A stretch of DNA of 64,000 nucleotides from Acidithiobacillus caldus ATCC 51756 (GTDB lineage: Bacteria > Pseudomonadota > Gammaproteobacteria > Acidithiobacillales > Acidithiobacillaceae), in NCBI RefSeq assembly GCF_000175575.2, contig NZ_CP005986.1, positions 1,618,125 through 1,682,124 of the forward strand. Direction: 5' to 3'. This document shows, piece by piece, positions 27,775 through 44,885 of the stretch. Position 1 is the first letter of the stretch. Each line of letters begins with the position of its first letter. Made by a program: the position numbers and the translations under genes. The notes under the pieces are model-generated. The model searched no databases, was not told the DNA's origin, and was given only the letters and a program-made list of their open reading frames with translations.

Positions 27775-28751
27775 CATGCCTGTTAACCTTTCTCAGCAAC
27801 AAGCCGGACCGGGATATGTTCCATACAGGCATTGAGCAACCTCAGGGGCAGTTCTGGCTCCCAGAAACGGCGATTGAAGCGATAGACAAACTCGTTCAGA
27901 TATTCCTGCAGATATTTGCCGGATACCCCATGGAATGTGCCCAAAAGAAAGGCCTTGAGGTTACCAATGGCGATGTGTACCCACGGCAACCACTCGTCCA
28001 CCTGATGCGGTTTGGTCACGCGCCCCTCATGCTCTTGGCTCTCTCCGAGAACTCGCAGCGCTATTAAGCCGTCGGTGCGGGTAGGTTGCTTGGGGCGCAA
28101 GCGTCGCCGCGCGAATTCGCGAATCCGGTCGGCAGAGACCGAAGGCGTCGTCTCGATGGCAATAAAGCCCGCCTTCTTGCCCCGGTTTTCCACGGCAACC
28201 AAGATCGGTGTTTTGCCTTCGGCCCCTCGACCGCTCTTCCCCCCAGACCGGCGTCCACCGACAAAGGCATCGTCCAACTCTACCAGCCCTTCCAAGCGAT
28301 ACAGACTGTCGCGATCGCCCATGGCGCGGCGCATGCGGCGCAACATCCGGTGAGCCGTGATCCAGGAGACCCCAATCTGCTTCGACAGCCGCAGGGCGGA
28401 CAATCCGCCCTTGTCGCTCGCCATCAAATAGATGGCCAGGAACCATTGCACCAGGGGCACATTGGACGAATGAAAAATTGTGCCGGCCGTCACCGAGGTC
28501 TGATGGCGACAGTGCCCGCACTGAAAGAGTTTTCGTCCGGCGATCCAGTATCCGCGGTCATGGCCGCATTTCGGACATCGAAACCCCTCGGGCCAGCGCT
28601 TTTGTTTCAGCGCCTCCAAGCAGGCCTCTTCCGTGCCAAACCGCGCTTGCCACTGCAAGAGGTTCGTCGCTTCAGCTTTCATCTCAGACCTCCTTTCTCT
28701 ATGCCTCACAGAGAGTTAGAGCTTGATTGCTGAGAATGATTCAGAGGCATG
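27775..28751 (-). mobile_element. IS1595-family insertion sequence, copy 1
   Basis: A 977-bp element repeated at 43909-44885. The outer ends are inverted: CATGCCTGTTAACC... at the left and, reversed, CATGCCTCTGAATC... at the right, both running into TTCTCAGCAA. It carries one transposase gene. No 8-bp target duplication was found (left TGGATAAA, right CCGCGTAG). Confidence 0.9.
27783..28682 (-). CDS. IS1595-family transposase, copy 1
   Basis: A 299-residue transposase of the ISXO2-like class. An N-terminal zinc ribbon (C-P-K-C-G-H..C-G-H-C, residues ~35-60) is followed by an HTH (S-A-L-R-L-S-K-Q-I-G-V-S) and the catalytic region with E-L-D-D-A-F-V-G-G, V-E-N-R-G and the late N-R-R-F. ATG 28682 follows AAAGGAGG; a start at 28709 adds nine residues. 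It is identical in translation to copy 2. Confidence 0.92.
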   Translation of the reverse strand: MKAEATNLLQWQARFGTEEACLEALKQKRWPEGFRCPKCGHDRGYWIAGRKLFQCGHCRHQTSVTAGTIFHSSNVPLVQWFLAIYLMASDKGGLSALRLSKQIGVSWITAHRMLRRMRRAMGDRDSLYRLEGLVELDDAFVGGRRSGGKSGRGAEGKTPILVAVENRGKKAGFIAIETTPSVSADRIREFARRRLRPKQPTRTDGLIALRVLGESQEHEGRVTKPHQVDEWLPWVHIAIGNLKAFLLGTFHGVSGKYLQEYLNEFVYRFNRRFWEPELPLRLLNACMEHIPVRLVAEKG

Positions 28752-30795: not shown

Positions 30796-31445
30796 TCAGT
30801 CGCCCAGCACCGGTTGCCGTTCACCCTCTCCGAAGAAGGCATAAGCTTCTTCTCCGTGAACCGCATCGTCACCGATGAGCAGGGTTTCTTCGTCCATACG
30901 CAAGGGAACGACGAGACTGATCACCTTGAGAATCACGTAGGTCATGACGAGGTTCAGGGCAATGATGAACGCGGCACCGATCAATTGGAGCCATACCTGG
31001 TGCCAGTTTCCGTCGATACCCCCACCCGGATTGCTCAGACCATAGGCTACACACCCCGCCTTGGTGGCTAGAACACCAGTCAAGACTCCTCCAAGCAATC
31101 CGGCCACCGCGTGGGTATGAAAGACGCCCAAGGTGTCGTCCACCTTACGAAAGAACGACAGCCGTTTGCCCAGGATGTTCATGGTGAACCAGGGGATGAT
31201 GCCCGTGGCGAGGCCGATGGCGATGGCGCCGAAGCCGTCGACGACGCCAGCCGCCGGGGTGATCCCCACCAAACCCGTGATCATGCCCTGGACCGCTCCG
31301 ATGACCGAGGGTTTCTTGAAGTAGAGGATATCCATGGCGGTCCAGGTCAGCACACTCATGGCGGTGGTGATATTGGTGTTGAGCACGGCTGCACCGGCAT
31401 CGCGACTGGCCGCATAGGGATCCCCGCCATTGAAGCCGTTCCAAC
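30796..31445 (-). pseudogene. amt: ammonium transporter, 3' half only, cut by IS66 copy A
   Basis: About 216 codons remain, reading from the IS66 end: N-G-F-N-G-G-D-P-Y-A-A-S, then T-W-T-A-M-D-I-L-Y-F-K-K-P-S-V-I-G-A-V-Q-G and the second twin-histidine helix H-T-H-A-V-A-G-L-L-G-G. These are diagnostic Amt/MEP sequences. A full Amt has ~400-430 residues, so the N-terminal half, including the Phe gate and first pore histidine, is missing. The missing half is not on the other side of IS66-A, so it has been deleted. The rest of the operon continues downstream. Confidence 0.9.
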
Positions 31446-31484
31446 GTAACCGTCCAAACTAGACCGCTATTGTCCCAAGCGAGG

Positions 31485-31802
31485 TTATCTGAGTCGTTTT
31501 TTATCGGCGGTCGGCTGGTGGGGTTGGGTGGGTCTGGCGTCCTTTACCGGTGAGAGCAGATGGGGTGGGACATTCCAGCTCTGGCGGTTGTCGGTGACCA
31601 CGGTGACGGTCTTGCGGTTATACTTGACCACCGTGCCCATCAAGCGTCCCCCCTGGTGGGCAAAGCTGACGCGCTGACCGGGATGGAAGCGCATCATCTC
31701 CAGGTGCGCCTGCATCGACTCGAGCATTTTCAGGCGCGCCACCACGCGCTGGTTGAGTTCCAGCAGTTCCTCGAAGCTCAGGCCGTCAATGTCCATGGGC
31801 AT
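31485..31802 (-). CDS. fourth (accessory) ORF of IS66, copy A
   Basis: A ~105-residue protein whose start lies inside the end of tnpC. A helical N-terminal part (F-E-E-L-L-E-L-N-Q-R-V-V-A-R-L) is followed by a small beta-rich segment with G-Q-R-V-S-F and G-T-V-V-K-Y-N-R-K-T-V-T-V, resembling an SH3/KOW-like fold. It is present intact in both IS66 copies. Its role in transposition is unknown. The start may be 31802 or 31796. Confidence 0.65.
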   Translation of the reverse strand: MPMDIDGLSFEELLELNQRVVARLKMLESMQAHLEMMRFHPGQRVSFAHQGGRLMGTVVKYNRKTVTVVTDNRQSWNVPPHLLSPVKDARPTQPHQPTADKKRLR

Positions 31803-33357
31803 GGTCGAGATCCGAGCGCAGCGGGTTGTTGGCAAAGCGGTCTTTCCAGACCCGTGGGGTCAGTGCTTCCACATCTCGGGCCGGGTGCAGGGCGACCCGT
31901 TGCAGGACATCCACCAGGTAGGTGTAGGGATCGACGTGATGTAGTCGGCAGGTGGTCAGCAGGCTCTGGATGATGCCAACGTGCCTTGCCCCCACCTCGC
32001 TCCAGCAGAACAGCCAGTTCTTGCGCCCCATCGGGATGACCCGCAGGGCCCGCTCCAGATGATTGGTATCGATGGGCACCTCGGGATCGTTCAGGTAGAC
32101 CTTGAGCTGAGCCTGGTGATTCTCGGCATAGACCAAGGCCTTGGCCAAAGGATCGCTGTTGAGCAGATCCATGCGTTGGCGTTGCTGGTGACACCAGCTG
32201 AAGAAAGCCTCGGCCATCGGGCCGGCATGGCGGCTGCGGTAGTCGCGCTTCGGTTCGCCTTCGAGTCCCTGTTCTCGAATCTGCTGTTCGACCCGGTACA
32301 GTGCGCCGATCCGGGTGAGGGCCTCCTGCGCCGCCGGGTCCTGGTCCTTGGCCCGCTCAAAGTAGCGCCGGGTGTGTGCCCAACACTGGGCCCGAGTCAC
32401 CTGTGGTCGGGATTTGGCATAGCGGTCGTAGGCCGCATAACCATCACTGAGCAGCACGCCGGCAAAGCCCGCGAGCTGTTGCTCCACGTGGGCGCTGCCA
32501 CGGCTCGTCGACCAGGTAAAGCACAACTCGTCGTCCTCTCCATGGATCGGCCAGTACCAGGTGGCCTGCAGCTGACCCGGCTTCTTGCGCCCCGCCTTGA
32601 TCGGCGTCTCGTCCATCGCCAGCACACGGCTCTGCAGGATGTGCCGCCACTGAGCATCGTAGATGGGGCGCAGGAGCTCAATGGCCCGTTGGGTGTAGTT
32701 CGTCAGCGTACTGCGACTCAGGGTGATACCGGCGTCCTGGAGTCGCTGGTGTTGACGATAGAGCGGGAGGTGGTAGCAGAATTTGTCCACCAGGATGCCG
32801 GCCAGCAGGCTGACATCGGCGAGGCTACCCGCGAACACCGCGGCAGGGGCCGGCACTTCCCGCAGGCTGGAGGAGGCCTTGTGCCGCCATACCGGGCGGC
32901 GGTACTCGAGCACCACGTAGCTGCCGGGACGCTGGGCCAGACGGCGGGTGATCTGGTAATCGATCACCTCGTACTGATCGGCATCGGGGCCATGGAACTC
33001 GGGCGCGGAGAGTTCGATCACCTCGACGGGGACATCGGGGCCGAAGCGCAGACCGGCATCGGTCACATCGTCGGCGTTGCGCTGCTTTGGCTTGCGCCGC
33101 CGATAGCTGATCTCTTCGGTGGGCGTAGGATCGGCCGCCGGTGGGGCATCGCCCAGCAGAGTGCTGAGATCGAGCTGATTGGGATGTTCGAGGATCCGCT
33201 TCTCGGACTTGCGCCCGAACAGCTGCCGCTTGAACCAGTCGAGTTGCTGTTTGAGCGAGGCGATTTCGGCGCGAAGGGCCTGGATGACCGCGGTCGGATC
33301 TCCCCCAGGGGAGAAGGTATTTTTTGCTGTGCAGTCCGACAGTTGCATGCACGGCAT
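31786..33357 (-). CDS. tnpC: IS66 transposase TnpC, copy A
   Basis: A 523-residue DDE transposase. The N-terminal helical region (A-E-I-A-S-L-K-Q-Q-L) precedes F-G-R-K-S-E-K, the IS66 zinc-ribbon/HTH region and the catalytic core with L-A-M-D-E-T-P-I-K, S-D-G-Y-A-A-Y-D-R and the late N-H-L-E-R-A-L-R. It starts at TAATG overlapping tnpB. Length is normal and the frame intact. Translation is the same as copy B. Confidence 0.95.
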   Translation of the reverse strand: MPCMQLSDCTAKNTFSPGGDPTAVIQALRAEIASLKQQLDWFKRQLFGRKSEKRILEHPNQLDLSTLLGDAPPAADPTPTEEISYRRRKPKQRNADDVTDAGLRFGPDVPVEVIELSAPEFHGPDADQYEVIDYQITRRLAQRPGSYVVLEYRRPVWRHKASSSLREVPAPAAVFAGSLADVSLLAGILVDKFCYHLPLYRQHQRLQDAGITLSRSTLTNYTQRAIELLRPIYDAQWRHILQSRVLAMDETPIKAGRKKPGQLQATWYWPIHGEDDELCFTWSTSRGSAHVEQQLAGFAGVLLSDGYAAYDRYAKSRPQVTRAQCWAHTRRYFERAKDQDPAAQEALTRIGALYRVEQQIREQGLEGEPKRDYRSRHAGPMAEAFFSWCHQQRQRMDLLNSDPLAKALVYAENHQAQLKVYLNDPEVPIDTNHLERALRVIPMGRKNWLFCWSEVGARHVGIIQSLLTTCRLHHVDPYTYLVDVLQRVALHPARDVEALTPRVWKDRFANNPLRSDLDHAHGH

Positions 33358-33737
33358 TATACCTTTTCGGGTCTCCCGAGGCTATGATTTCTGCATTTTT
33401 CGAAGCGTTTGAAGCGGCGCAGCGAGGACAGATCGATGCCTTCGATGATCAGCTTCAGCTCCGTCCAGCTCAGCATCCGCCTGTCACCGCCCTGGCCATC
33501 CACATAAAAGCGGCCCGCTTCCAGGCGCTTGCTCCACAGGCAGTAACCGCCCTGCTCGAAGTACAGCACCTTGAGCTGCGTGCGCCTGCGGTTGATGAAC
33601 ACGAACAATTGGCCGCTGGCCGGATCCTCGGCTAACTTCTGTCGCACCAGGGCGCTGAGCCCATCGAAGGACTTGCGCAGGTCCGCAGGCGGCGTATACA
33701 GCCATACCCGGAGGACGGCCGACCCGGGGACCAGCAT
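33357..33737 (-). CDS. tnpB: IS66 accessory protein TnpB, copy A
   Basis: A 126-residue IS66 Orf2-type protein with D-L-R-K-S-F-D-G-L, Q-L-F-V-F-I-N-R-R-R-T-Q-L-K-V-L and G-G-Y-C-L-W-S-K-R-L-E-A-G-R-F. It differs from copy B at two residues (a Gln for Arg in the G-G-D-R-R region and a Cys for Gly near the end). ATG 33737 lies two bases after the tnpA stop. Confidence 0.93.
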   Translation of the reverse strand: MLVPGSAVLRVWLYTPPADLRKSFDGLSALVRQKLAEDPASGQLFVFINRRRTQLKVLYFEQGGYCLWSKRLEAGRFYVDGQGGDRRMLSWTELKLIIEGIDLSSLRRFKRFEKCRNHSLGRPEKV

Positions 33738-33739
33738 GG

Positions 33740-34036
33740 TCAGCCTTGGCGTAGCCGCAGACACACCCCATTGCCCAGATCGAGCTCGATGTGCCAGCCA
33801 CGCGCTGGCTCAGAGACCTCGGGTGCCAGCTCGAGCCAATCGTTCAATGAGCCGCCTCGGGCACTGGCGGGATCCTCGGCTAAGCCTGCACTATCGGCCC
33901 GCAGCTTGCGCTTCCAATAACCAAAGGTCGCCACGGCTACACCGGCTTGGGCACAGAATGCTCTTTGCGTCAGGCCGCTGACCCCTTGTTCGTCGATCAG
34001 TCGTTGCCAGTCGGCCCTGCTGTACCGCTGCTTCAT
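33740..34036 (-). CDS. tnpA: IS66 accessory protein TnpA, copy A
   Basis: A 98-residue IS66 Orf1-type protein with an HTH: S-G-L-T-Q-R-A-F-C-A-Q-A-G-V-A-V-A-T-F-G-Y-W-K-R-K-L. It probably binds the element ends or regulates transposition. It is the first gene of the IS66 operon and is identical in translation to copy B. Confidence 0.93.
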   Translation of the reverse strand: MKQRYSRADWQRLIDEQGVSGLTQRAFCAQAGVAVATFGYWKRKLRADSAGLAEDPASARGGSLNDWLELAPEVSEPARGWHIELDLGNGVCLRLRQG

Positions 34037-34329
34037 ATCGCGCTCCTGTATGTAAATGCAGGAACAGGTTATGGCGCGCAGGTCAGGCCGGGAAGTACGG
34101 TGCGGTTTGAACGGTTACATGGGGCGTACGTTCAAAACCCTTCTTGATGATATCGGAGCGCATAAAAACCTCGTCAAGGTGATGGATCAAATGGCGGTGG
34201 CGGGCAGCCGCCGACGCGCAGGGCCGCTGCAAGATGGGAGTATAAGCCCCGAGCCGGTTCAGGCCAAACGGGGGCCCGCGTTCTGATCCCTGTCGAACTT
34301 TTTGAGGTGCTTGCGCTGACGACGGAACA

Positions 34330-34485
34330 CGCCTGCCTTCGCCGACAGCTTTCCGCATCGAGCTCCGGGACGATGGACCGATGGACAAGCCGATCTATCA
34401 CTGCCACAGTCATGACCTCCTCCTCCCGGAAGACCTGCTCCCAGGCCGAGAATGGTTGACTGGCGGTAATGGCCAAGCTCTGCGG
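34330..34485 (-). pseudogene. istB fragment (IS21-family helper ATPase, C-terminal end)
   Basis: The minus-strand frame L-A-I-T-A-S-Q-P-F-S-A-W-E-Q-V-F, then M-T-V-A-V-I-D-R-L-V-H-R and E-S-C-R-R-R is the conserved C-terminal end of IstB (canonical I-T-A-N-Q-P-F-S-x-W). The Walker motifs and istA are absent. The sequence from 34119 to 34329 holds nothing I can name. It marks an earlier IS21 insertion at the edge of the CS2-hydrolase module. Confidence 0.7.
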
Positions 34486-34499
34486 AACGACAATTTGAA

Positions 34500-36110
34500 T
34501 TAGGTCAGAGGCTCCCGAGAATCATCGAGTCGATATTCTTGCAAATTGATACCGAGCAATTTAACCTTTTGATAAATTGCACGTGGTGTAACCCCAAACT
34601 CAAGCGCCACATCGCTCACTCGACCATTATAACGACGTAGGCTTTCGTGCAGCAGTCGAGATTCCGCAATATCCCCTTTCTGACGCCTTAGCGCACGAAG
34701 CGAACAACAATCGCTCATGGTTTGCGGGGCTTCCTGTTCAATCACAGTGTCAATGATTTCTCCTGTATTCAACAAAAAAGCCCGCTCTAGTAAGTTTTCC
34801 ATTTCACGCACATTTCCCGGCCAATCATATGCGAATATTTGCTTCCAGGCGCGAGAAGATAATATTCTAATGGGATGATGATGTTTTTCGGATAACCGTC
34901 TAAGAATATGATCAACCAAAGCGGACATATCATCGGGTCTCATACGCAACGGTGGCAAATGAATATGTACGACATTTAGCCGATAATACAGGTCCCTACG
35001 GAATTTTCCATTTCGCACAAGCAAATCCAAATTTTCATTTGTTGCTACAATGATACGTACATCAACCTTTAAAGGTTCTTCTCCACCAACTCGTTCGAAC
35101 TCTCCTTCCTGAACAACCCTCAACAGTTTAACTTGAGCCGCGATAGGTAAGGAGTTGATTTCATCGAGAAACAATGTACCACCATTTGCGCGTTCAAAAA
35201 AACCATGTCGAACCTGATAGGCATTAGTAAATGCCCCGCGCTCGTGGCCAAACAGTTCGGTCTCAATGAGACTTTCGGGAATGGCGCCGCAGTTGATCGC
35301 GATAAAGGGTTTTTCGCTTCTGTCACTTAATGCATGTATAGCTCGAGCAATAATCTCTTTACCTGTGCCTGTTTCACCAGAAATTACAGCACTAGCGGTA
35401 GTCGGCGCAACAATTTCGACGGTCCGGAATGCTGCACGCATAGCTGTAGATTGAGCAATGATACGCGCCCTAGCCCTTTGTTGGGACGCTCTGTTAGACA
35501 GATTATTAGTGCACCTAGTACTAACCAAAGCCTGTTGTATCTGATCATCTGTACTTGCTAGCGATGAATAGACTTGACCATTTTTTATTTGATATTCATC
35601 CCCAGGTTGTTCGTGAGCGACGGCGGGATCCGTGTAAACCAATACTTCGCATACGCCATCGTTAGCTGCGATGCGTTTTCGCAACTCAACTTTGGCATAG
35701 CCGAAACTACGTGCCGCAATAGCTCCAAAAACGCTGGAAGTCATCCGACACAATTCCGGCGCCTCACGCACCGCCTCTCCAAATGGACAGCGATGATTGA
35801 TCACACGCACACAGGGAGCACCGCTTGATGTACTAGAAAATTCTCCCCCAATCTGGTTTTTTATATCCACAATCAGGCTCGCATATTGTTCTTGATTGAG
35901 TGGCATATCCTGCGGCAAGGAACGTTCGGCACGAGCTGCAGTTTCCAAGCAACTCGCAGCAGCCAATCCCATGCGCTCAATGTAGCGCACCCTATCATGT
36001 TCCTGGCTACAGCCAAACTGGCCGGCCACCTTAATGCTTTGTACGATGAATGCTTGCAAGAAGGAAAGTGGGTTTAATTGTCCTAACATAGGATAACCAG
36101 ATTTTGACAT
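34500..36110 (-). CDS. sigma-54-dependent transcriptional activator of the CS2-hydrolase module
   Basis: A 536-residue bacterial enhancer-binding protein. The N-terminal sensor region (residues ~1-200) has a cysteine-rich block with C100, C108, C121 and C154 (V-I-N-H-R-C-P-F-G and L-C-R-M), like methanogen-output-domain-type sensors, and may bind a metal, Fe-S cluster or small ligand. The AAA+ domain has Walker A G-E-T-G-T-G-K-E (244-251) and the sigma-54 contact loop G-A-F-T-N-A (292-297, usually G-A-F-T-G-A). A Fis-type HTH ends the protein. AGGAG precedes the ATG. It most likely activates the sigma-54 promoter at 37142-37157. Confidence 0.88.
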   Translation of the reverse strand: MSKSGYPMLGQLNPLSFLQAFIVQSIKVAGQFGCSQEHDRVRYIERMGLAAASCLETAARAERSLPQDMPLNQEQYASLIVDIKNQIGGEFSSTSSGAPCVRVINHRCPFGEAVREAPELCRMTSSVFGAIAARSFGYAKVELRKRIAANDGVCEVLVYTDPAVAHEQPGDEYQIKNGQVYSSLASTDDQIQQALVSTRCTNNLSNRASQQRARARIIAQSTAMRAAFRTVEIVAPTTASAVISGETGTGKEIIARAIHALSDRSEKPFIAINCGAIPESLIETELFGHERGAFTNAYQVRHGFFERANGGTLFLDEINSLPIAAQVKLLRVVQEGEFERVGGEEPLKVDVRIIVATNENLDLLVRNGKFRRDLYYRLNVVHIHLPPLRMRPDDMSALVDHILRRLSEKHHHPIRILSSRAWKQIFAYDWPGNVREMENLLERAFLLNTGEIIDTVIEQEAPQTMSDCCSLRALRRQKGDIAESRLLHESLRRYNGRVSDVALEFGVTPRAIYQKVKLLGINLQEYRLDDSREPLT

Positions 36111-36173
36111 CAGCGACTCCTATAGCAATCCTTTTTATTATTATAGCACATTTATTGATTCCATAAGGCCCAT

Positions 36174-36416
36174 TCACTTGGGGCCATGCACATGTGCCCG
36201 GCCGGCAGCACATGCTGGACACGGACCAGTTTTGGTCTTAATGGATCGTACAGCAAGCTCACGCCCCCGGCTCATACTCCCGTGCACCGCTGGTGCGCCC
36301 AAAAGTCGAACAGCACGCTCATGGCAATTAGGACAATCCGGACTGGGGGCATCATACGGCTGCATGGCTTCAAGCCGATAGCCGCAGCTCGGGCACTGAA
36401 AATCATATGTAGGCAT
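36174..36416 (-). CDS. FmdB-family zinc-ribbon protein
   Basis: An 80-residue protein that begins M-P-T-Y-D-F-Q-C-P-S-C-G-Y and has a second C-P-N-C, the FmdB/CxxC_CxxC_SSSS zinc ribbon. A C-terminal C-P-A-C-A-A-G adds another cysteine pair. Members sit next to amidase, formamidase and carbon-compound operons and are thought to be regulatory or metal-handling. It lies 60 bp after the CS2-hydrolase-like gene and 63 bp before the sigma-54 activator, on the same strand, so it is probably co-transcribed. Confidence 0.85.
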   Translation of the reverse strand: MPTYDFQCPSCGYRLEAMQPYDAPSPDCPNCHERAVRLLGAPAVHGSMSRGRELAVRSIKTKTGPCPACAAGRAHVHGPK

Positions 36417-36476
36417 TGGATATAACTCCTATTGTGAGAATTGAAGCGTGCGCTATCTGCAACCGATGGCATGAGG

Positions 36477-37076
36477 CTATTTAGCGCCCATGGCCTTGTT
36501 GGTATTAACCTTTTCTCCTATCCTGATGTGAGGCGGACGCAAATGCCCTGTTTCAACCTCCCAAATCCAGCCACTAACCGTTACATGTTTGGGAATCAGC
36601 GGGTGGTTACGGACATACTCCACCTGCCGAGCGCAGGTTTCGTCGACGTCGCTGTACATTTTTATCCACTTGCCAAAAGCACCGGCCTTAATAGTTAACT
36701 CTGGCAAGTCAGGATCGAGTTGGATATTATCCAAGTCAATGCCTTTATCCTTCAAGGCCTTCACAATCGTATCCGTGTGAGCCGACATCATACCGCATTC
36801 GGTATGGTTGATGATTACAATTTCTTCTGTGCCAAAGAAGTTGCAGGTAAGCATGGCTGAGCGAATGGCATCATCGGTGATAAGTCCACCTGCGTTCCTG
36901 AACACATGTGCATCACCCTGATCTCCACGAATGCCGAGTGCTTCGTCCACTGGTAGGCGTTCGTCCATGCAAGCACATACCCAGAGCCGCCGGTTGTTGG
37001 GAATACCCATCTGGCGCCGTAAAGCCCATCGCTTATGACCTTCAAAATCGCTCTCAAGTTGTTGTTTCAAACTCAT
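36477..37076 (-). CDS. beta-carbonic anhydrase family protein of the CS2/COS hydrolase branch
   Basis: A 199-residue zinc enzyme. Zn ligands are C36 (C-M-D-E-R), H91 and C94 (H-T-E-C-G-M), with the D38/R40 dyad. Several blocks match, from memory, the Acidianus CS2 hydrolase more than ordinary carbonic anhydrases: G-I-P-N-N-R-R-L-W-V, R-N-A-G-G-x-x-T-D-D-A-I-R-S-A, N-F-F-G-T-x-E-I, Q-L-D-P-x-L-P, R-N-H-P-L-I-P-K and E-V-E-T. Such enzymes convert CS2 and COS to H2S and CO2 and do not hydrate CO2. Acidithiobacillus thiooxidans strains have homologues. A sigma-54 promoter lies upstream and AAGGAG precedes the ATG. A plain carbonic anhydrase is the alternative. Confidence 0.85.
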   Translation of the reverse strand: MSLKQQLESDFEGHKRWALRRQMGIPNNRRLWVCACMDERLPVDEALGIRGDQGDAHVFRNAGGLITDDAIRSAMLTCNFFGTEEIVIINHTECGMMSAHTDTIVKALKDKGIDLDNIQLDPDLPELTIKAGAFGKWIKMYSDVDETCARQVEYVRNHPLIPKHVTVSGWIWEVETGHLRPPHIRIGEKVNTNKAMGAK

Positions 37077-37141
37077 GGTATCTCTCCTTTCTCTCTACTG
37101 GAAACATCCTACCGGACAATTGCAGATAGCGCCCATATCTC

Positions 37142-37157
37142 AGCAAAATGCGTGCCC
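37142..37157 (-). promoter_or_regulatory. sigma-54 (-24/-12) promoter of the CS2-hydrolase-like gene
   Basis: The minus strand reads GGGCACGCATTTTGCT. The GGCACG and TTGCT boxes match the sigma-54 consensus TGGCACG-N4-TTGCW, except T to G at its first base, with the required GG-N10-GC spacing. Transcription would start near 37131, leaving a ~55-nt leader before ATG 37076. A sigma-54 activator gene lies in the same cluster. Confidence 0.85.
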
Positions 37158-37192
37158 ACAATAATAACAAATAGAAACAGCATGTTGTATCG

Positions 37193-37213
37193 TTCAATGA
37201 ATTGACTATTGAA
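37193..37213. promoter_or_regulatory. candidate activator site TTCAAT-N9-ATTGAA
   Basis: An inverted repeat 60-80 bp upstream of the predicted sigma-54 start. Enhancer-binding proteins usually bind dyads at such distances. The surrounding DNA is AT-rich, which suits looping but also makes chance dyads likelier. Confidence 0.35.
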
Positions 37214-37278
37214 GTCACACTTCTAAACAATATTATTTGTTCTACTGAATAGTTTTTATAATCATTGAGTTATATGAG

Positions 37279-37293
37279 TGAAGCGATGCTTCA
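37279..37293. promoter_or_regulatory. candidate activator site TGAAGC-GAT-GCTTCA
   Basis: A perfect 6-bp dyad with a 3-bp spacer, about 150 bp upstream of the predicted sigma-54 transcription start, within the usual range for upstream activator sequences. The 170 bp beyond it up to IS66 copy B hold no gene I can support. Confidence 0.4.
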
Positions 37294-37546
37294 TACGATT
37301 TGCATGCCTGGTTCTTGATGGTCTTGGCACCGGAAGGATCGCCACATATTGGTCTTCGATCTCTCTCGCCACTTTGGATTGCGGCTTGCAGGGCAAGGAG
37401 GCGGCACCGGTCGCCGACACCGCTTGCATGGCACCACAACAACGTTATAAGGGTCTAATCAACCGTAACCGTTCAAACCGCACCGTACTTCCCGGCCTGA
37501 CCTGCGCGCCATAACCTGTTCCTGCATTTACATACAGGAGCGCGAT

Positions 37547-37843
37547 ATGAAGCAGCGGTACAGCAGGGCCGACTGGCAACGACTGATCGACGAACAAGGG
37601 GTCAGCGGCCTGACGCAAAGAGCATTCTGTGCCCAAGCCGGTGTAGCCGTGGCGACCTTTGGTTATTGGAAGCGCAAGCTGCGGGCCGATAGTGCAGGCT
37701 TAGCCGAGGATCCCGCCAGTGCCCGAGGCGGCTCATTGAACGATTGGCTCGAGCTGGCACCCGAGGTCTCTGAGCCAGCGCGTGGCTGGCACATCGAGCT
37801 CGATCTGGGCAATGGGGTGTGTCTGCGGCTACGCCAAGGCTGA
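37547..37843 (+). CDS. tnpA: IS66 accessory protein TnpA, copy B
   Basis: A 98-residue HTH protein with the same translation as copy A: an HTH around S-G-L-T-Q-R-A-F-C-A-Q-A-G-V and a basic W-K-R-K-L segment. An AGGAGC site lies before the ATG. First gene of the intact IS66 operon. Confidence 0.93.
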   Translation: MKQRYSRADWQRLIDEQGVSGLTQRAFCAQAGVAVATFGYWKRKLRADSAGLAEDPASARGGSLNDWLELAPEVSEPARGWHIELDLGNGVCLRLRQG

Positions 37844-37845
37844 CC

Positions 37846-38226
37846 ATGCTGGTCCCCGGGTCGGCCGTCCTCCGGGTATGGCTGTATACGCCGCCTGCGG
37901 ACCTGCGCAAGTCCTTCGATGGGCTCAGCGCCCTGGTGCGACAGAAGTTAGCCGAGGATCCGGCCAGCGGCCAATTGTTCGTGTTCATCAACCGCAGGCG
38001 CACGCAGCTCAAGGTGCTGTACTTCGAGCAGGGCGGTTACTGCCTGTGGAGCAAGCGCCTGGAAGCGGGCCGCTTTTATGTGGATGGCCGGGGCGGTGAC
38101 AGGCGGATGCTGAGCTGGACGGAGCTGAAGCTGATCATCGAAGGCATCGATCTGTCCTCGCTGCGCCGCTTCAAACGCTTCGAAAAAGGCAGAAATCATA
38201 GCCTCGGGAGACCCGAAAAGGTATAA
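37846..38226 (+). CDS. tnpB: IS66 accessory protein TnpB, copy B
   Basis: A 126-residue IS66 Orf2-type protein beginning M-L-V-P-G-S-A-V-L-R-V-W, with D-L-R-K-S-F-D-G-L and F-V-F-I-N-R-R-R. The two residue differences from copy A (Arg for Gln, Gly for Cys) are the only ones I noticed between the elements' proteins. The stop overlaps tnpC as TAATG. Confidence 0.93.
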   Translation: MLVPGSAVLRVWLYTPPADLRKSFDGLSALVRQKLAEDPASGQLFVFINRRRTQLKVLYFEQGGYCLWSKRLEAGRFYVDGRGGDRRMLSWTELKLIIEGIDLSSLRRFKRFEKGRNHSLGRPEKV

Positions 38227-39797
38227 TGCCGTGCATGCAACTGTCGGACTGCACAGCAAAAAATACCTTCTCCCCTGGGGGAGATCCGACCGCGGTCATC
38301 CAGGCCCTTCGCGCCGAAATCGCCTCGCTCAAACAGCAACTCGACTGGTTCAAGCGGCAGCTGTTCGGGCGCAAGTCCGAGAAGCGGATCCTCGAACATC
38401 CCAATCAGCTCGATCTCAGCACTCTGCTGGGCGATGCCCCACCGGCGGCCGATCCTACGCCCACCGAAGAGATCAGCTATCGGCGGCGCAAGCCAAAGCA
38501 GCGCAACGCCGACGATGTGACCGATGCCGGTCTGCGCTTCGGCCCCGATGTCCCCGTCGAGGTGATCGAACTCTCCGCGCCCGAGTTCCATGGCCCCGAT
38601 GCCGATCAGTACGAGGTGATCGATTACCAGATCACCCGCCGTCTGGCCCAGCGTCCCGGCAGCTACGTGGTGCTCGAGTACCGCCGCCCGGTATGGCGGC
38701 ACAAGGCCTCCTCCAGCCTGCGGGAAGTGCCGGCCCCTGCCGCGGTGTTCGCGGGTAGCCTCGCCGATGTCAGCCTGCTGGCCGGCATCCTGGTGGACAA
38801 ATTCTGCTACCACCTCCCGCTCTATCGTCAACACCAGCGACTCCAGGACGCCGGTATCACCCTGAGTCGCAGTACGCTGACGAACTACACCCAACGGGCC
38901 ATTGAGCTCCTGCGCCCCATCTACGATGCTCAGTGGCGGCACATCCTGCAGAGCCGTGTGCTGGCGATGGACGAGACGCCGATCAAGGCGGGGCGCAAGA
39001 AGCCGGGTCAGCTGCAGGCCACCTGGTACTGGCCGATCCATGGAGAGGACGACGAGTTGTGCTTTACCTGGTCGACGAGCCGTGGCAGCGCCCACGTGGA
39101 GCAACAGCTCGCGGGCTTTGCCGGCGTGCTGCTCAGTGATGGTTATGCGGCCTACGACCGCTATGCCAAATCCCGACCACAGGTGACTCGGGCCCAGTGT
39201 TGGGCACACACCCGGCGCTACTTTGAGCGGGCCAAGGACCAGGACCCGGCGGCGCAGGAGGCCCTCACCCGGATCGGCGCACTGTACCGGGTCGAACAGC
39301 AGATTCGAGAACAGGGACTCGAAGGCGAACCGAAGCGCGACTACCGCAGCCGCCATGCCGGCCCGATGGCCGAGGCTTTCTTCAGCTGGTGTCACCAGCA
39401 ACGCCAACGCATGGATCTGCTCAACAGCGATCCTTTGGCCAAGGCCTTGGTCTATGCCGAGAATCACCAGGCTCAGCTCAAGGTCTACCTGAACGATCCC
39501 GAGGTGCCCATCGATACCAATCATCTGGAGCGGGCCCTGCGGGTCATCCCGATGGGGCGCAAGAACTGGCTGTTCTGCTGGAGCGAGGTGGGGGCAAGGC
39601 ACGTTGGCATCATCCAGAGCCTGCTGACCACCTGCCGACTACATCACGTCGATCCCTACACCTACCTGGTGGATGTCCTGCAACGGGTCGCCCTGCACCC
39701 GGCCCGAGATGTGGAAGCACTGACCCCACGGGTCTGGAAAGACCGCTTTGCCAACAACCCGCTGCGCTCGGATCTCGACCATGCCCATGGACATTGA
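38226..39797 (+). CDS. tnpC: IS66 transposase TnpC, copy B
   Basis: A 523-residue DDE transposase identical in translation to copy A, with M-D-E-T-P-I-K, S-D-G-Y-A-A-Y and N-H-L-E-R-A-L-R catalytic-region blocks and a C-terminal P-Y-T-Y-L-V-D-V-L. It is intact. Given the target duplication around the element, it is probably functional. Confidence 0.95.
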   Translation: MPCMQLSDCTAKNTFSPGGDPTAVIQALRAEIASLKQQLDWFKRQLFGRKSEKRILEHPNQLDLSTLLGDAPPAADPTPTEEISYRRRKPKQRNADDVTDAGLRFGPDVPVEVIELSAPEFHGPDADQYEVIDYQITRRLAQRPGSYVVLEYRRPVWRHKASSSLREVPAPAAVFAGSLADVSLLAGILVDKFCYHLPLYRQHQRLQDAGITLSRSTLTNYTQRAIELLRPIYDAQWRHILQSRVLAMDETPIKAGRKKPGQLQATWYWPIHGEDDELCFTWSTSRGSAHVEQQLAGFAGVLLSDGYAAYDRYAKSRPQVTRAQCWAHTRRYFERAKDQDPAAQEALTRIGALYRVEQQIREQGLEGEPKRDYRSRHAGPMAEAFFSWCHQQRQRMDLLNSDPLAKALVYAENHQAQLKVYLNDPEVPIDTNHLERALRVIPMGRKNWLFCWSEVGARHVGIIQSLLTTCRLHHVDPYTYLVDVLQRVALHPARDVEALTPRVWKDRFANNPLRSDLDHAHGH

Positions 39798-40098
39798 CGG
39801 CCTGAGCTTCGAGGAACTGCTGGAACTCAACCAGCGCGTGGTGGCGCGCCTGAAAATGCTCGAGTCGATGCAGGCGCACCTGGAGATGATGCGCTTCCAT
39901 CCCGGTCAGCGCGTCAGCTTTGCCCACCAGGGGGGACGCTTGATGGGCACGGTGGTCAAGTATAACCGCAAGACCGTCACCGTGGTCACCGACAACCGCC
40001 AGAGCTGGAATGTCCCACCCCATCTGCTCTCACCGGTAAAGGACGCCAGACCCACCCAACCCCACCAGCCGACCGCCGATAAAAAACGACTCAGATAA
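39781..40098 (+). CDS. fourth (accessory) ORF of IS66, copy B
   Basis: A ~105-residue protein overlapping the end of tnpC. Starts at 39781 and 39787 are both ATG. A helical front with L-E-L-N-Q-R-V-V-A-R-L precedes a beta-rich G-Q-R-V-S-F..G-T-V-V-K-Y block. It ends 39 bp before the right IS end, so it belongs to the element and is kept intact in both copies. Confidence 0.65.
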   Translation: MPMDIDGLSFEELLELNQRVVARLKMLESMQAHLEMMRFHPGQRVSFAHQGGRLMGTVVKYNRKTVTVVTDNRQSWNVPPHLLSPVKDARPTQPHQPTADKKRLR

Positions 40099-40189
40099 CC
40101 TCGCTTGGGACAATAGCGGTCTAGTTTGGACGGTTACAATCAACCCACCTTTCTGAATTTTTCGTCTGCGCCGCCCCGAGACGGATTCA

Positions 40190-40527: not shown

Positions 40528-40995
40528 CTATGGGCTGGTCTGCAGGAGGGGACGAACCAGGATCTCCTCCGCCAAGACATTGTCTGGCTGGGCGAAGCTG
40601 TAGACGAGGGCTTGGGCCACATCTTCCGGATGAAGCGCGTCCAGGGACCTGCGCCGTTCGCGCATCGCTTCCGCTGGGACATTGTTACCCCATTCGGTCC
40701 ATACTGCGCCGGGCTCGATCAGCGCCACGCGGATGCCCTCTGCGGCAAGCTCTTTGCGCAGGGCATCGTGAAAACCGACCACGGCAAACTTTGTGGCGTT
40801 ATAAACCGACCATCCGGCAATGCCATAGCGGCCACCGCCGCTGGATACCGTGGAAATCACGGCGCCGGGGCGTCCCCTGAGCCAGGGGATCGCGGCATGG
40901 GTGCAATGCAGTATTCCGTAGAGATTGGCGTCGATGGTGCGCTGCCATTCCTCTGCCTTGCTCACGGCAAAATGAATTACCGCAGACCCATCCAC
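40528..40995 (-). pseudogene. short-chain dehydrogenase/reductase, N-terminal part missing
   Basis: The last ~155 residues of an SDR: V-S-S (catalytic Ser region), Y-N-A-T-K (Tyr-x-x-x-Lys), I-E-P-G-A-V-W-T and a normal C-terminal end. The nucleotide-binding Rossmann start (T-G-x-x-x-G-x-G) and ~90 residues are missing. The frame begins right after the aldo/keto reductase stop, so the 5' part was lost by deletion. Probably non-functional. Confidence 0.8.
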
Positions 40996-41035: not shown

Positions 41036-42046
41036 TCACTCATCGCTGTTCTGTCTGCTTACCATCCATTGCGGGTAGAGAGGGGCCGGGGCGGTTATTG
41101 CCGATAGGCGCGCCACATCTTCTCCGGTCAATCGGACCTGAACGGCCCCGAGATTGTCTTTCAATTGTTCCATTCTTTTTGCCCCGATGATCACGGAGCT
41201 GATTCCCGACTGGGCGAGGAGCCAGGCGATGGCTACCTGGGGAATGGTCGCACCGATCTTCTGGGCGATGGACTCGGCGGCTTCAACGGCGTCATAGCCA
41301 TGCACCTGGTCGATGGGCGGGAAATCAAAGTCCTTCCGTCTGCCGTCCGCAGGCGCGGATGTATCCCGACGATACTTGCCGGTGAGAAAGCCGCCGGACA
41401 GAGGCGACCAAGGGAGGACTCCAAGACCCTGCTCGCGACACAGGGGGAGCAGTTCGTGTTCCAGATCTCGTCCGACCAGAGAGTAGTAGGCCTGCAAGGA
41501 GGAGAAACCCGTCCATTGGCCGGCATCCGCTAACGCCTGCGCCCGGGCGATGTGTCGAGCCGGCCAGTTGGAGCAGCCCGCATAGAGCACTTTGCCGCTG
41601 CGCACCAGGTCATCGAGGGCACGCAGCGTTTCGTCCATGGGTGTATGGCAATCCCAGCCATGGACCTGGTAGAGATCGATACGGTCCGTGCCCAGGCGGC
41701 GCAGGCTGGCATGGCAGGCCGTCATGATGTGCTTGCGGGAAAGGCCGGTTCCATTGGGGTCCACATCACTCATGCTGCCGCGCACCTTGGTGGCGATGAC
41801 GGCGGCGTCTCTCTCTATCCCTATGTTTTTCAGTGCTTTTCCCAGAATCTCTTCGGACTCTCCACGGGAATAAATGTCCGCGGTATCGAAGAAATTGATG
41901 CCTGATTCCCAGGCGCGGCGCACGATCTCGTCGGCCTCCTTCTGGGCAACCGTTGCGATATGGTAAAAATCGGAGCCGAAGGTCATGGTTCCTAAGCAAA
42001 GAGTGGAGACCTTCATACCGGTACGGCCGAGTTGACGATATTCCAT
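41036..42046 (-). CDS. aldo/keto reductase
   Basis: A 336-residue NADPH-dependent (beta/alpha)8-barrel reductase of the YajO/AKR-YghZ-like group. It starts M-E-Y-R-Q-L-G-R-T-G-M-K-V-S-T-L-C-L-G-T-M. The catalytic set is D-T-A-D-I-Y-S-R-G-x-S-E (Asp, Tyr), a Lys in I-A-T-K-V-R and a His in Y-Q-V-H-G-W-D. ATG 42046 is preferred over 42106. It would reduce aldehydes or ketones. An SDR remnant follows on the same strand. Confidence 0.9.
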   Translation of the reverse strand: MEYRQLGRTGMKVSTLCLGTMTFGSDFYHIATVAQKEADEIVRRAWESGINFFDTADIYSRGESEEILGKALKNIGIERDAAVIATKVRGSMSDVDPNGTGLSRKHIMTACHASLRRLGTDRIDLYQVHGWDCHTPMDETLRALDDLVRSGKVLYAGCSNWPARHIARAQALADAGQWTGFSSLQAYYSLVGRDLEHELLPLCREQGLGVLPWSPLSGGFLTGKYRRDTSAPADGRRKDFDFPPIDQVHGYDAVEAAESIAQKIGATIPQVAIAWLLAQSGISSVIIGAKRMEQLKDNLGAVQVRLTGEDVARLSAITAPAPLYPQWMVSRQNSDE

Positions 42047-42236
42047 AGGTTCACCTCGCGAATGGAAAGCTACGAACTTTGGGGCAGGCAGAGGAAGTAA
42101 TCTCATCCTCCACTACCAGAGATTGGCGATATCCCCGGCACTTGTGCCATGAGGGTCACGCAGATATCCGGTGATCGTAGTGAGTGAATGTAGATTTAAG
42201 CGATGCTACCTTTGCTTTGTGAATCCTCCTTGCAAG

Positions 42237-42394: not shown

Positions 42395-43735
42395 CTAGCC
42401 CTGCCGCAACCAGCGATACACCGTCCGTTCACTCACCCCCATGGCATCGGCGACCAGACGCCGGTTCCCGCCGAAGCGCTGCAGGAGCGCCGGAAGGGCC
42501 GCTGGACCGGGACGCCCATGGGTAGGACCGGTAGGGCATCGGACCGCGGCGATCGGAACCGAAGGGGTCGATCGCCCATCCTCCAAGTCCAGATCGAGGT
42601 CCTCCACGAGGATAACGGGCCCAGCCGCCAAGGCTGCGGCCTTTTGCAGGATGTTGCGCAACTCCCGCACGTTGCCGGGGAAATCATAGGCACAGAGCCG
42701 GATCTCCGCCTCCCGCGACAATTCCCAGCGCCCGCCCCAACTGGCCCCGATCCGCTGCAGGAGCACCCGGGCAATCCCCGGAATATCCTCCCGGCGTTCC
42801 CGCAGCGGCGGCAACGAGACGGTGATGGCGGCCAAGCGATAATAGAGATCCGCCCGGAAGCTCCGCGCCGCCACCATCTCGCGCAAATCGCGGTTGGTGG
42901 CCGCCACCACCCGCACATCGGCATGGAGGGTTTCGGCGCCCCCCAGGCGGCGGAAGGATCCGCTTTCCAGCACGCGCAAGAACTTGGCCTGCATCGCCAG
43001 GGGCAGTTCGCCAATCTCATCCAGAAAGAGCGTCCCGCCATCGGCTGTTTCAAAGAGGCCCCGCTTGCGCCCCAGACAGCCCGTAAAGGCCCCCCGCTCA
43101 TGGCCCAGGATCTCGCTTTCGAACAGGGTATCGGGTAAAGAGGTGCAATCGACCGTAATGAAAGGCCCCCTCTGCCGCGCCGAAAAGTGGTGGATGGCAC
43201 TGGCCGCCAATTCCTTGCCTACCCCGCTTTCCCCATGCAGCAAAATGCTGGCCTCCGTACGCGCCGCCATTTCGATATGGTGGAGGCAACGCAGAAAGGC
43301 CGGTGAACGCCCAACCATCTGCATCTCGCCGCAAGTAATCACTTCGTCCTGATCCACCAGACGGATAATCTCCTCCCCCAGATAGCGCTGTCCCGCCATG
43401 CCCATGATGGCGTGGCCGCGGATGCGCACATGCTCGGCACGGTTGCTGGGATCAAAATGGACATGGCGCACCTCATGTGCCTGCCCCGTGCTGAACACCG
43501 CCTGATGCGGGCAGTCTTCCCCGCGCTGGTGGCAGGGCATTGGTGAATGATGGGAAATCTCATGGCAGTGCCGCCCGACGATATCCGCCGCAAGCACCCC
43601 ATAGGCTTCCTGGTAGGCATGATTGGCGGCCACGATCCGATAATGCTCATCGATGAGCACCATGGGATTCTCATGCATGTCCAGCACGCTGGAAATCTGT
43701 AATCCATCCGTTGTCGTGTCCGTCATGGTATCCAT
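42395..43735 (-). CDS. PAS-containing sigma-54-dependent transcriptional activator
   Basis: A 446-residue enhancer-binding protein. Residues ~15-125 form a PAS sensor with C-H-E-I-S-H-H...P-C-H-Q-R-G-E-D-C-P-H, a Cys/His-rich insert that could bind a metal or Fe-S cluster. The AAA+ domain has G-E-S-G-V-G-K-E (168-175) and G-A-F-T-G-C (215-220) in place of G-A-F-T-G-A. A Fis-type HTH ends the protein (V-A-D-A-M-G-V-S-E-R-T-V-Y-R-W-L). Tandem palindromes upstream may be its own sites. Its target operon is not evident. Confidence 0.88.
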   Translation of the reverse strand: MDTMTDTTTDGLQISSVLDMHENPMVLIDEHYRIVAANHAYQEAYGVLAADIVGRHCHEISHHSPMPCHQRGEDCPHQAVFSTGQAHEVRHVHFDPSNRAEHVRIRGHAIMGMAGQRYLGEEIIRLVDQDEVITCGEMQMVGRSPAFLRCLHHIEMAARTEASILLHGESGVGKELAASAIHHFSARQRGPFITVDCTSLPDTLFESEILGHERGAFTGCLGRKRGLFETADGGTLFLDEIGELPLAMQAKFLRVLESGSFRRLGGAETLHADVRVVAATNRDLREMVAARSFRADLYYRLAAITVSLPPLRERREDIPGIARVLLQRIGASWGGRWELSREAEIRLCAYDFPGNVRELRNILQKAAALAAGPVILVEDLDLDLEDGRSTPSVPIAAVRCPTGPTHGRPGPAALPALLQRFGGNRRLVADAMGVSERTVYRWLRQG

Positions 43736-43908: not shown

Positions 43909-44885
43909 CATGCCTGTTAACCTTTCTCAGCAACAAGCCGGACCGGGATATGTTCCATACAGGCATTGAGCAACCTCAGGGGCAGTTCTGGCTCCCAGAA
44001 ACGGCGATTGAAGCGATAGACAAACTCGTTCAGATATTCCTGCAGATATTTGCCGGATACCCCATGGAATGTGCCCAAAAGAAAGGCCTTGAGGTTACCA
44101 ATGGCGATGTGTACCCACGGCAACCACTCGTCCACCTGATGCGGTTTGGTCACGCGCCCCTCATGCTCTTGGCTCTCTCCGAGAACTCGCAGCGCTATTA
44201 AGCCGTCGGTGCGGGTAGGTTGCTTGGGGCGCAAGCGTCGCCGCGCGAATTCGCGAATCCGGTCGGCAGAGACCGAAGGCGTCGTCTCGATGGCAATAAA
44301 GCCCGCCTTCTTGCCCCGGTTTTCCACGGCAACCAAGATCGGTGTTTTGCCTTCGGCCCCTCGACCGCTCTTCCCCCCAGACCGGCGTCCACCGACAAAG
44401 GCATCGTCCAACTCTACCAGCCCTTCCAAGCGATACAGACTGTCGCGATCGCCCATGGCGCGGCGCATGCGGCGCAACATCCGGTGAGCCGTGATCCAGG
44501 AGACCCCAATCTGCTTCGACAGCCGCAGGGCGGACAATCCGCCCTTGTCGCTCGCCATCAAATAGATGGCCAGGAACCATTGCACCAGGGGCACATTGGA
44601 CGAATGAAAAATTGTGCCGGCCGTCACCGAGGTCTGATGGCGACAGTGCCCGCACTGAAAGAGTTTTCGTCCGGCGATCCAGTATCCGCGGTCATGGCCG
44701 CATTTCGGACATCGAAACCCCTCGGGCCAGCGCTTTTGTTTCAGCGCCTCCAAGCAGGCCTCTTCCGTGCCAAACCGCGCTTGCCACTGCAAGAGGTTCG
44801 TCGCTTCAGCTTTCATCTCAGACCTCCTTTCTCTATGCCTCACAGAGAGTTAGAGCTTGATTGCTGAGAATGATTCAGAGGCATG
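43909..44885 (-). mobile_element. IS1595-family insertion sequence, copy 2
   Basis: A 977-bp element that appears identical to copy 1, with ends CATGCC.. and ..GGCATG. Flanks differ (left TAATTA.., right TCAAGTAT) and no target duplication was seen. It separates the palindrome cluster from whatever once lay to its right. Confidence 0.9.
43917..44816 (-). CDS. IS1595-family transposase, copy 2
   Basis: A 299-residue ISXO2-like transposase with the same translation as copy 1: zinc ribbon C-P-K-C-G..C-G-H-C, HTH and E-L-D-D-A-F-V-G-G catalytic block. ATG 44816 follows AAAGGAGG. Intact. Confidence 0.92.
   Translation of the reverse strand: MKAEATNLLQWQARFGTEEACLEALKQKRWPEGFRCPKCGHDRGYWIAGRKLFQCGHCRHQTSVTAGTIFHSSNVPLVQWFLAIYLMASDKGGLSALRLSKQIGVSWITAHRMLRRMRRAMGDRDSLYRLEGLVELDDAFVGGRRSGGKSGRGAEGKTPILVAVENRGKKAGFIAIETTPSVSADRIREFARRRLRPKQPTRTDGLIALRVLGESQEHEGRVTKPHQVDEWLPWVHIAIGNLKAFLLGTFHGVSGKYLQEYLNEFVYRFNRRFWEPELPLRLLNACMEHIPVRLVAEKG

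Follow-up and report, generated by a model that had tools for sequence, protein, structure and literature searches.

The product of a minus-strand gene of Acidithiobacillus caldus ATCC 51756 is, with near certainty, a carbon disulfide (CS2/COS) hydrolase, its substrate being assigned by homology. What seems new is the recent arrival of the gene along with a regulator, promoter and operators of its own, and an unusual change in that regulator which may lock it on. The gene lies in the window analysed here, a 64-kb stretch of the 2.78-Mb chromosome. We consider it highly probable that the best explanation as a whole combines a CS2/COS hydrolase, a zinc mechanism, a sigma54 switch and recent acquisition. 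The gene and its translation signal are as follows.

36477-37076, minus strand: CS2-hydrolase-type gene of the beta-carbonic anhydrase (CA) family, 199 aa, with the ATG at 37076 and the stop at 36477
37082-37089, minus strand: ribosome-binding site AAGGAGAG, graded good, read from the sequence and preceding the hydrolase start

The original prediction gave the right position and is corrected here to the minus strand, from 37076 to 36477; on the plus strand, stops interrupt the frame at 36477-37076. The zinc ligands C36, H91 and C94 and the D38/R40 dyad were all found at the residue numbers it had quoted, as were its four conserved strings, GIPNNRRLWV (24), NFFGT (79), QLDPDLP (119) and RNHPLIPK (156), and E39 and F80-F81 are also present. 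C36, D38, R40, H91 and C94 are invariant across 47 aligned homologues. Homologues with 57-99% identity occur in 80 loci elsewhere, and these, the Pfam Pro_CA match and the PDB match to the CS2 hydrolase 3TEN (E=7e-56) exclude chance for this observation. It had also been claimed that an automatic label would hide the likely substrate, and this holds: Pfam returns Pro_CA (E=1e-11) and no NCBIfam model reaches its cut-off for the window protein, so that an automatic pipeline would assign a generic label, and relatives with 51-60% identity in public plasmid records are labelled 'carbonic anhydrase'.

Enzymes of the CS2 hydrolase subclass form an octamer or hexadecamer in which the CA entrance is blocked and a narrow hydrophobic tunnel is present, and they act on CS2 and COS, not on CO2. 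Sequence, profile, tree and fold all place the window protein with the Acidianus CS2 hydrolase, in support of the subclass originally proposed, and none of the four gave the closer similarity to carbonic anhydrases that had been named as contrary to it. In a phmmer search against the PDB, the top match was the Acidianus enzyme 3TEN (192 bits, E=7e-56), while the best carbonic anhydrase reached 89 bits and the Thiobacillus COS hydrolase (COSase) 80 bits. A profile built from the 47 homologues widened this gap, with 246 bits for 3TEN and at most 120 for the others. As a control, the clade-D CA-like protein L095 from a sister species gave the reverse ranking: the nearest CAs reached 119-140 bits, while 3TEN scored 106. 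In a tree of 60 rows, the window protein and Acidianus 3TEN fell into one group (100/98), apart from the CAs and COSase and together with haloarchaeal, cyanobacterial, planctomycete, actinobacterial and proteobacterial relatives.

The predicted fold agrees with this placement. The AlphaFold monomer model (pLDDT 92.3) superposes on 3TEN, the 3TEO-type structure with which comparison had been proposed and the best PDB match, over residues 4-199 (192 residues, 1.9 A, Z 23.2, 47% identity), whereas the match to the nearest CAs and COSase ends at about residue 184 (Z 16.8-20.4); Foldseek TM scores were 0.87 for 3TEN and at most 0.63 for the others. Since the alignment with 3TEN spans almost the whole chain and that with the CAs and COSase only reaches about residue 184, both terminal arms are predicted to be present. 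In the Acidianus enzyme, as Smeulders reportedly described in 2011, these arms close off the normal CA entrance and form the tunnel. Furthermore, E39, F80, F81, R20, R21, A74, P122, R180 and P182 are common to the window protein and 3TEN, unlike the CAs; E39 gives CMDER where the CAs have CMDAR, and F80-F81 is replaced by LL or similar in 13 CA/COSase rows. A Phe-Phe motif is characteristic of CS2 hydrolase (PMC6382920). The Acidianus enzyme, at 47% identity, is the assayed CS2 hydrolase whose sequence was compared directly.

An ordinary beta-CA that supplies bicarbonate or CO2 would account for the Pfam Pro_CA match, and the window protein is the only Pro_CA protein in the genome, for which reason a residual CA role is conceivable. 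However, every similarity measure prefers the CS2 hydrolase and the control CA, L095, behaves oppositely. Moreover, the genome already encodes the carboxysomal CsoSCA (a search of it for an alpha-CA found none), and the gene is missing from most relatives, with a close copy (93-100%) in four of the 29 family genomes and only a distant CA in two others, a patchy distribution unlike that of a housekeeping CA. This reading is thus most improbable.

A second alternative is that the protein serves in practice as a COS hydrolase, with COS as the main natural substrate and CS2 as a laboratory substrate. CS2 hydrolases use CS2 and COS alike, which speaks for it. So does a report that clade D enzymes may bind COS with stronger affinity than CO2 (PMC8209446). 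Against it, neither the PDB search nor the tree grouped the window protein with the Thiobacillus COSase or placed it closest to 3VQJ, it carries FF where the COSase has LL, and a Thiobacillus genome has a COSase-like gene beside a CS2-hydrolase-type gene, an arrangement that suggests separate roles. We therefore regard this alternative as quite unlikely; score, tree and fold led us to reject both the ordinary CA and the COSase assignments. In that Thiobacillus genome (Thiobacillus sp. UBA2186, locus L080), the COSase-like gene at 6876-7379 contains an in-frame stop.

The CS2/COS hydrolase gene is the first of three genes on the same strand, in the order hydrolase, fmdB, sigma54 activator, with gaps of 60 and 63 bp.

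36174-36416, minus strand: FmdB-family zinc-ribbon protein, 80 aa, second gene (TIGR02605, 54.5 bits against a cut-off of 31.3; Zn_ribbon_8)
34500-36110, minus strand: sigma54-dependent activator, 536 aa (Sigma54_activat, PF00158, 234.8 bits; MetOD1, 42.2 bits)

A full-length relative of the activator occurs in 32 of the 80 related loci, most of which also have fmdB, and rpoN is present in the genome. Elsewhere, the neighbours include flavoproteins resembling sulfide:quinone or flavocytochrome-c sulfide dehydrogenase, TusA, DsrE, SoxYZ, TauE and NicO, and in Methylobacter a ZIP metal transporter adjoins the cluster; these are the partners expected of an H2S-yielding zinc enzyme, not of CO2 hydration. 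Within the island itself, no sulfide-oxidation gene adjoins the hydrolase gene. Many Nostoc, other cyanobacteria and planctomycetes (L015-L060) carry CS2-hydrolase-type genes of 57-63% identity that lack the activator and promoter. Our literature search found no paper linking a CS2 hydrolase with FmdB or sigma54, and none on the sensing of CS2/COS trace gases.

Upstream of the hydrolase gene lie a candidate sigma54 promoter and putative operators.

37142-37157, minus strand: -24/-12 sigma54 promoter GGGCACGCATTTTGCT, 65 bp before the ATG
37208-37226, no strand: probable operator copy 2, four mismatches, with 60 bp from its centre to the -24 element
37277-37295, no strand: operator copy 1, TATGAAGCATCGCTTCACT, with 129 bp from its centre to the -24 element

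The promoter is the sole -24/-12 match with at most one mismatch in the 64 kb, and since 0.77 such matches are expected by chance anywhere in the window, the evidence lies in its place and not in its existence. A -24/-12 site with at most two mismatches was found in the 200 bp preceding the hydrolase gene in 27 of the 32 activator-bearing loci and in 1 of the 48 others (Fisher 3e-15, kinship ignored). For the operator, all 4096 half-sites with spacers of 0-12 were scanned in 25 upstream regions, and the best palindrome was GTGAAG-N5-CTTCAC, with a mean of 2.56 mismatches versus 4.32 in shuffles, where the largest difference between two shuffles was 0.76; the best motif against the activator-less loci, TGTGAA-N7-TTCACA, overlaps it. 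The putative palindromic operator TGTGAAG-N5-CTTCACA thus goes with the activator-bearing loci, and the difference was kept after the loci that first suggested the motif were omitted (3.91 versus 5.55 mismatches, p 8e-9, kinship ignored). Copy 1 is the only match in the window with at most two mismatches (0.16 expected), the 60-bp spacing of copy 2 is seen also in L002-L004, and operator-to-promoter distances of 59-61 and 129-132 recur at other loci, a placement that, as far as the sequence tells, is the layout of sigma54 activator enhancer sites. Helical phasing of these distances seemed strong when all loci were counted (R 0.63, period 10.2) and was discarded, because it did not survive the grouping of related loci into distance classes (p 0.66).

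The activator combines an N-terminal V4R/MetOD1-type sensor with an AAA+ domain, and its sensor model (pLDDT 79.7) resembles TRAPP/V4R-fold proteins; the modelled architecture is that of a regulator detecting a small molecule, and our guess is that the natural inducer is CS2, COS or a product. The GAFTGA loop of such activators contacts sigma54. At residues 292-297 the window activator has GAFTNA instead, a variant that, among the relatives compared, it shares only with A. sulfuriphilus (L001), while nearly all others with a readable loop have GAFTGA; our literature search found no mention of GAFTNA. In NorR, asparagine or aspartate at the second glycine of GAFTGA yields an active, fully constitutive protein (PMC2941729), and because the asparagine is at the same position here, a locked-on activator is predicted. 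The window activator may thus be permanently on, an analogy that may fail since NorR has a different sensor. Possibly, and we put this forward tentatively, the operon is a dedicated CS2/COS regulon in which the V4R-type activator works on TGTGAAG-N5-CTTCACA, and the GAFTNA allele in the horizontally spread copy uncouples it from the inducer to give a constitutive CS2 hydrolase.

The segment that carries the cluster is bordered by insertion sequences.

31446-34118, minus strand: left IS66-family element (tnpA/tnpB/tnpC), with no target duplication (GTTCCAAC / ATGGGGCG)
34119-34163, minus strand: ilvD stub MRSDIIKKGFERTPH, the 15-codon 5' end of a second ilvD, cut by the left IS66
37465-40137, plus strand: right IS66 element, inverted, differing from the left copy by 2 mismatches over 2673 bp

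Positions 34119-37274 (3.2 kb) are 98.6% identical to A. sulfuriphilus CJ-2, a member of another genus, while rpoN, our yardstick of divergence, is only 74% identical between the two genomes (the RecD2 helicase has no match in A. sulfuriphilus). This contrast in identity shows that the segment was transferred recently, from one genus to the other or to both out of a common source. The G+C content is 0.49 in the island and 0.57 in the window. At one end the match runs out in the ilvD stub, whereas ilvD is intact at the matching place in A. sulfuriphilus, which points to a donor with the cluster beside ilvD; the window genome has its own ilvD elsewhere. At the other end, the shared sequence breaks off 3 bp before operator copy 1, for which reason this copy may be missing in A. 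sulfuriphilus, whose contig begins shortly before. Between the activator and the ilvD stub, 34164-34500 is common to both genomes and is presumably a decayed IS21 istB fragment.

The inverted, nearly identical IS66 copies on both sides of the segment would fit a composite transposon that brought the operon in. However, the right copy is bracketed by its own 8-bp duplication AATCAACC (37457-37464 and 40138-40145), the outer flanks differ (GTTCCAAC on the left and AATCAACC on the right), and the stretch common with A. sulfuriphilus ends in the ilvD stub cut by IS66, so that the left IS66 would have come after the transferred segment or during its trimming. A single outer target duplication was not found, and we thus rejected the composite transposon, an unlikely vehicle, on its flanks. 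Several observations concern the surroundings of these elements. The 3' half of an ammonium transporter gene (30796-31386) adjoins the left IS66, with internal stops in the genome-wide match and three intact copies elsewhere, and is probably the remnant of a deletion beside the IS. A second sigma54 activator (42395-43735) lies just outside the right IS66, near an aldo/keto reductase gene (41036-42106) and an SDR-like gene (40528-40995). The ORFs at 27783-28709 and 43917-44843 are of equal length (308 aa), the second being an IS1595-type transposase.

With regard to mechanism, zinc on C36/H91/C94 and the D38/R40 dyad would activate water, as in other enzymes of this type, and the activated water would attack CS2 and then COS to give H2S and CO2, after which the cell would oxidise the H2S. 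Both terminal arms and the Phe-Phe motif would give form to the oligomer and to a hydrophobic path leading to the metal, favouring CS2 and COS over CO2. Transcription would start from the sigma54 promoter under the control of the activator, whose gene lies two genes downstream; this protein, with its predicted V4R sensor like those of phenol regulators, would attach to the palindromic operators. The entire segment is a recent acquisition. CS2 hydrolases clear toxic CS2 and COS and supply H2S to sulfur oxidisers, and such bacteria serve in industrial air cleaning. Automatic annotation conceals these enzymes under the name of carbonic anhydrase. Genuine CS2 hydrolases could be sought in sequence data by the conserved promoter, operator and activator, which might also lead to a CS2/COS biosensor and allow the sensing of these trace gases to be tested directly. 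What is fresh and testable here is the regulatory package and the GAFTNA allele.

Among known systems, the window protein is most readily compared with the CS2 hydrolase of Acidianus sp. A1-3 (PDB 3TEN/3TEO, EC 3.13.1.5), with which it shares the full-length fold, both predicted arms, the zinc site, the D/R dyad, E39, the Phe-Phe motif and the clade. It differs from this enzyme, at 47% identity, in W17, P42 and other positions, has two extra residues before G54 and lacks a five-residue insertion (VKSPD region) in the C-terminal half. With the COS hydrolase of Thiobacillus thioparus THI115 (PDB 3VQJ/3VRK) it has in common the clade D beta-CA fold and zinc site, but bit score (80 vs 192), LL in place of FF and a separate clade set the two apart. 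Within Acidithiobacillus, the abstract of Smeulders et al. 2013 is said to describe PD and TPAGGG insertions and a longer tail in S1p, with octamers only for the S1p type and an octamer/hexadecamer for G8. The window protein is without the insertions that a sub-group of its relatives carries after residues 25 and 50; as such insertions mark S1p by the description in that abstract, it is expected to belong to the G8 (octamer/hexadecamer) type. It resembles the A. thiooxidans G8 and S1p enzymes in host group and reported enzyme type, and for these two a passage of PMC8209446 gives negligible or no CO2 hydration. The enzyme type is thus already known in Acidithiobacillus and acid-loving sulfur bacteria, to which the window protein adds a member, and the novelty of the enzyme is modest because its kind is known in the host group. 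As for the activator, it is like the V4R-type phenol regulators MopR, PoxR and DmpR in predicted sensor fold (Z 11.6-12.2 to their phenol-sensing domains), AAA+ domain and a -24/-12 promoter before a catabolic gene, and unlike them in sensor sequence (about 10% identity), in its own conserved cysteines C108, C121 and C154, invariant among the relatives aligned, and in GAFTNA in place of GAFTGA.
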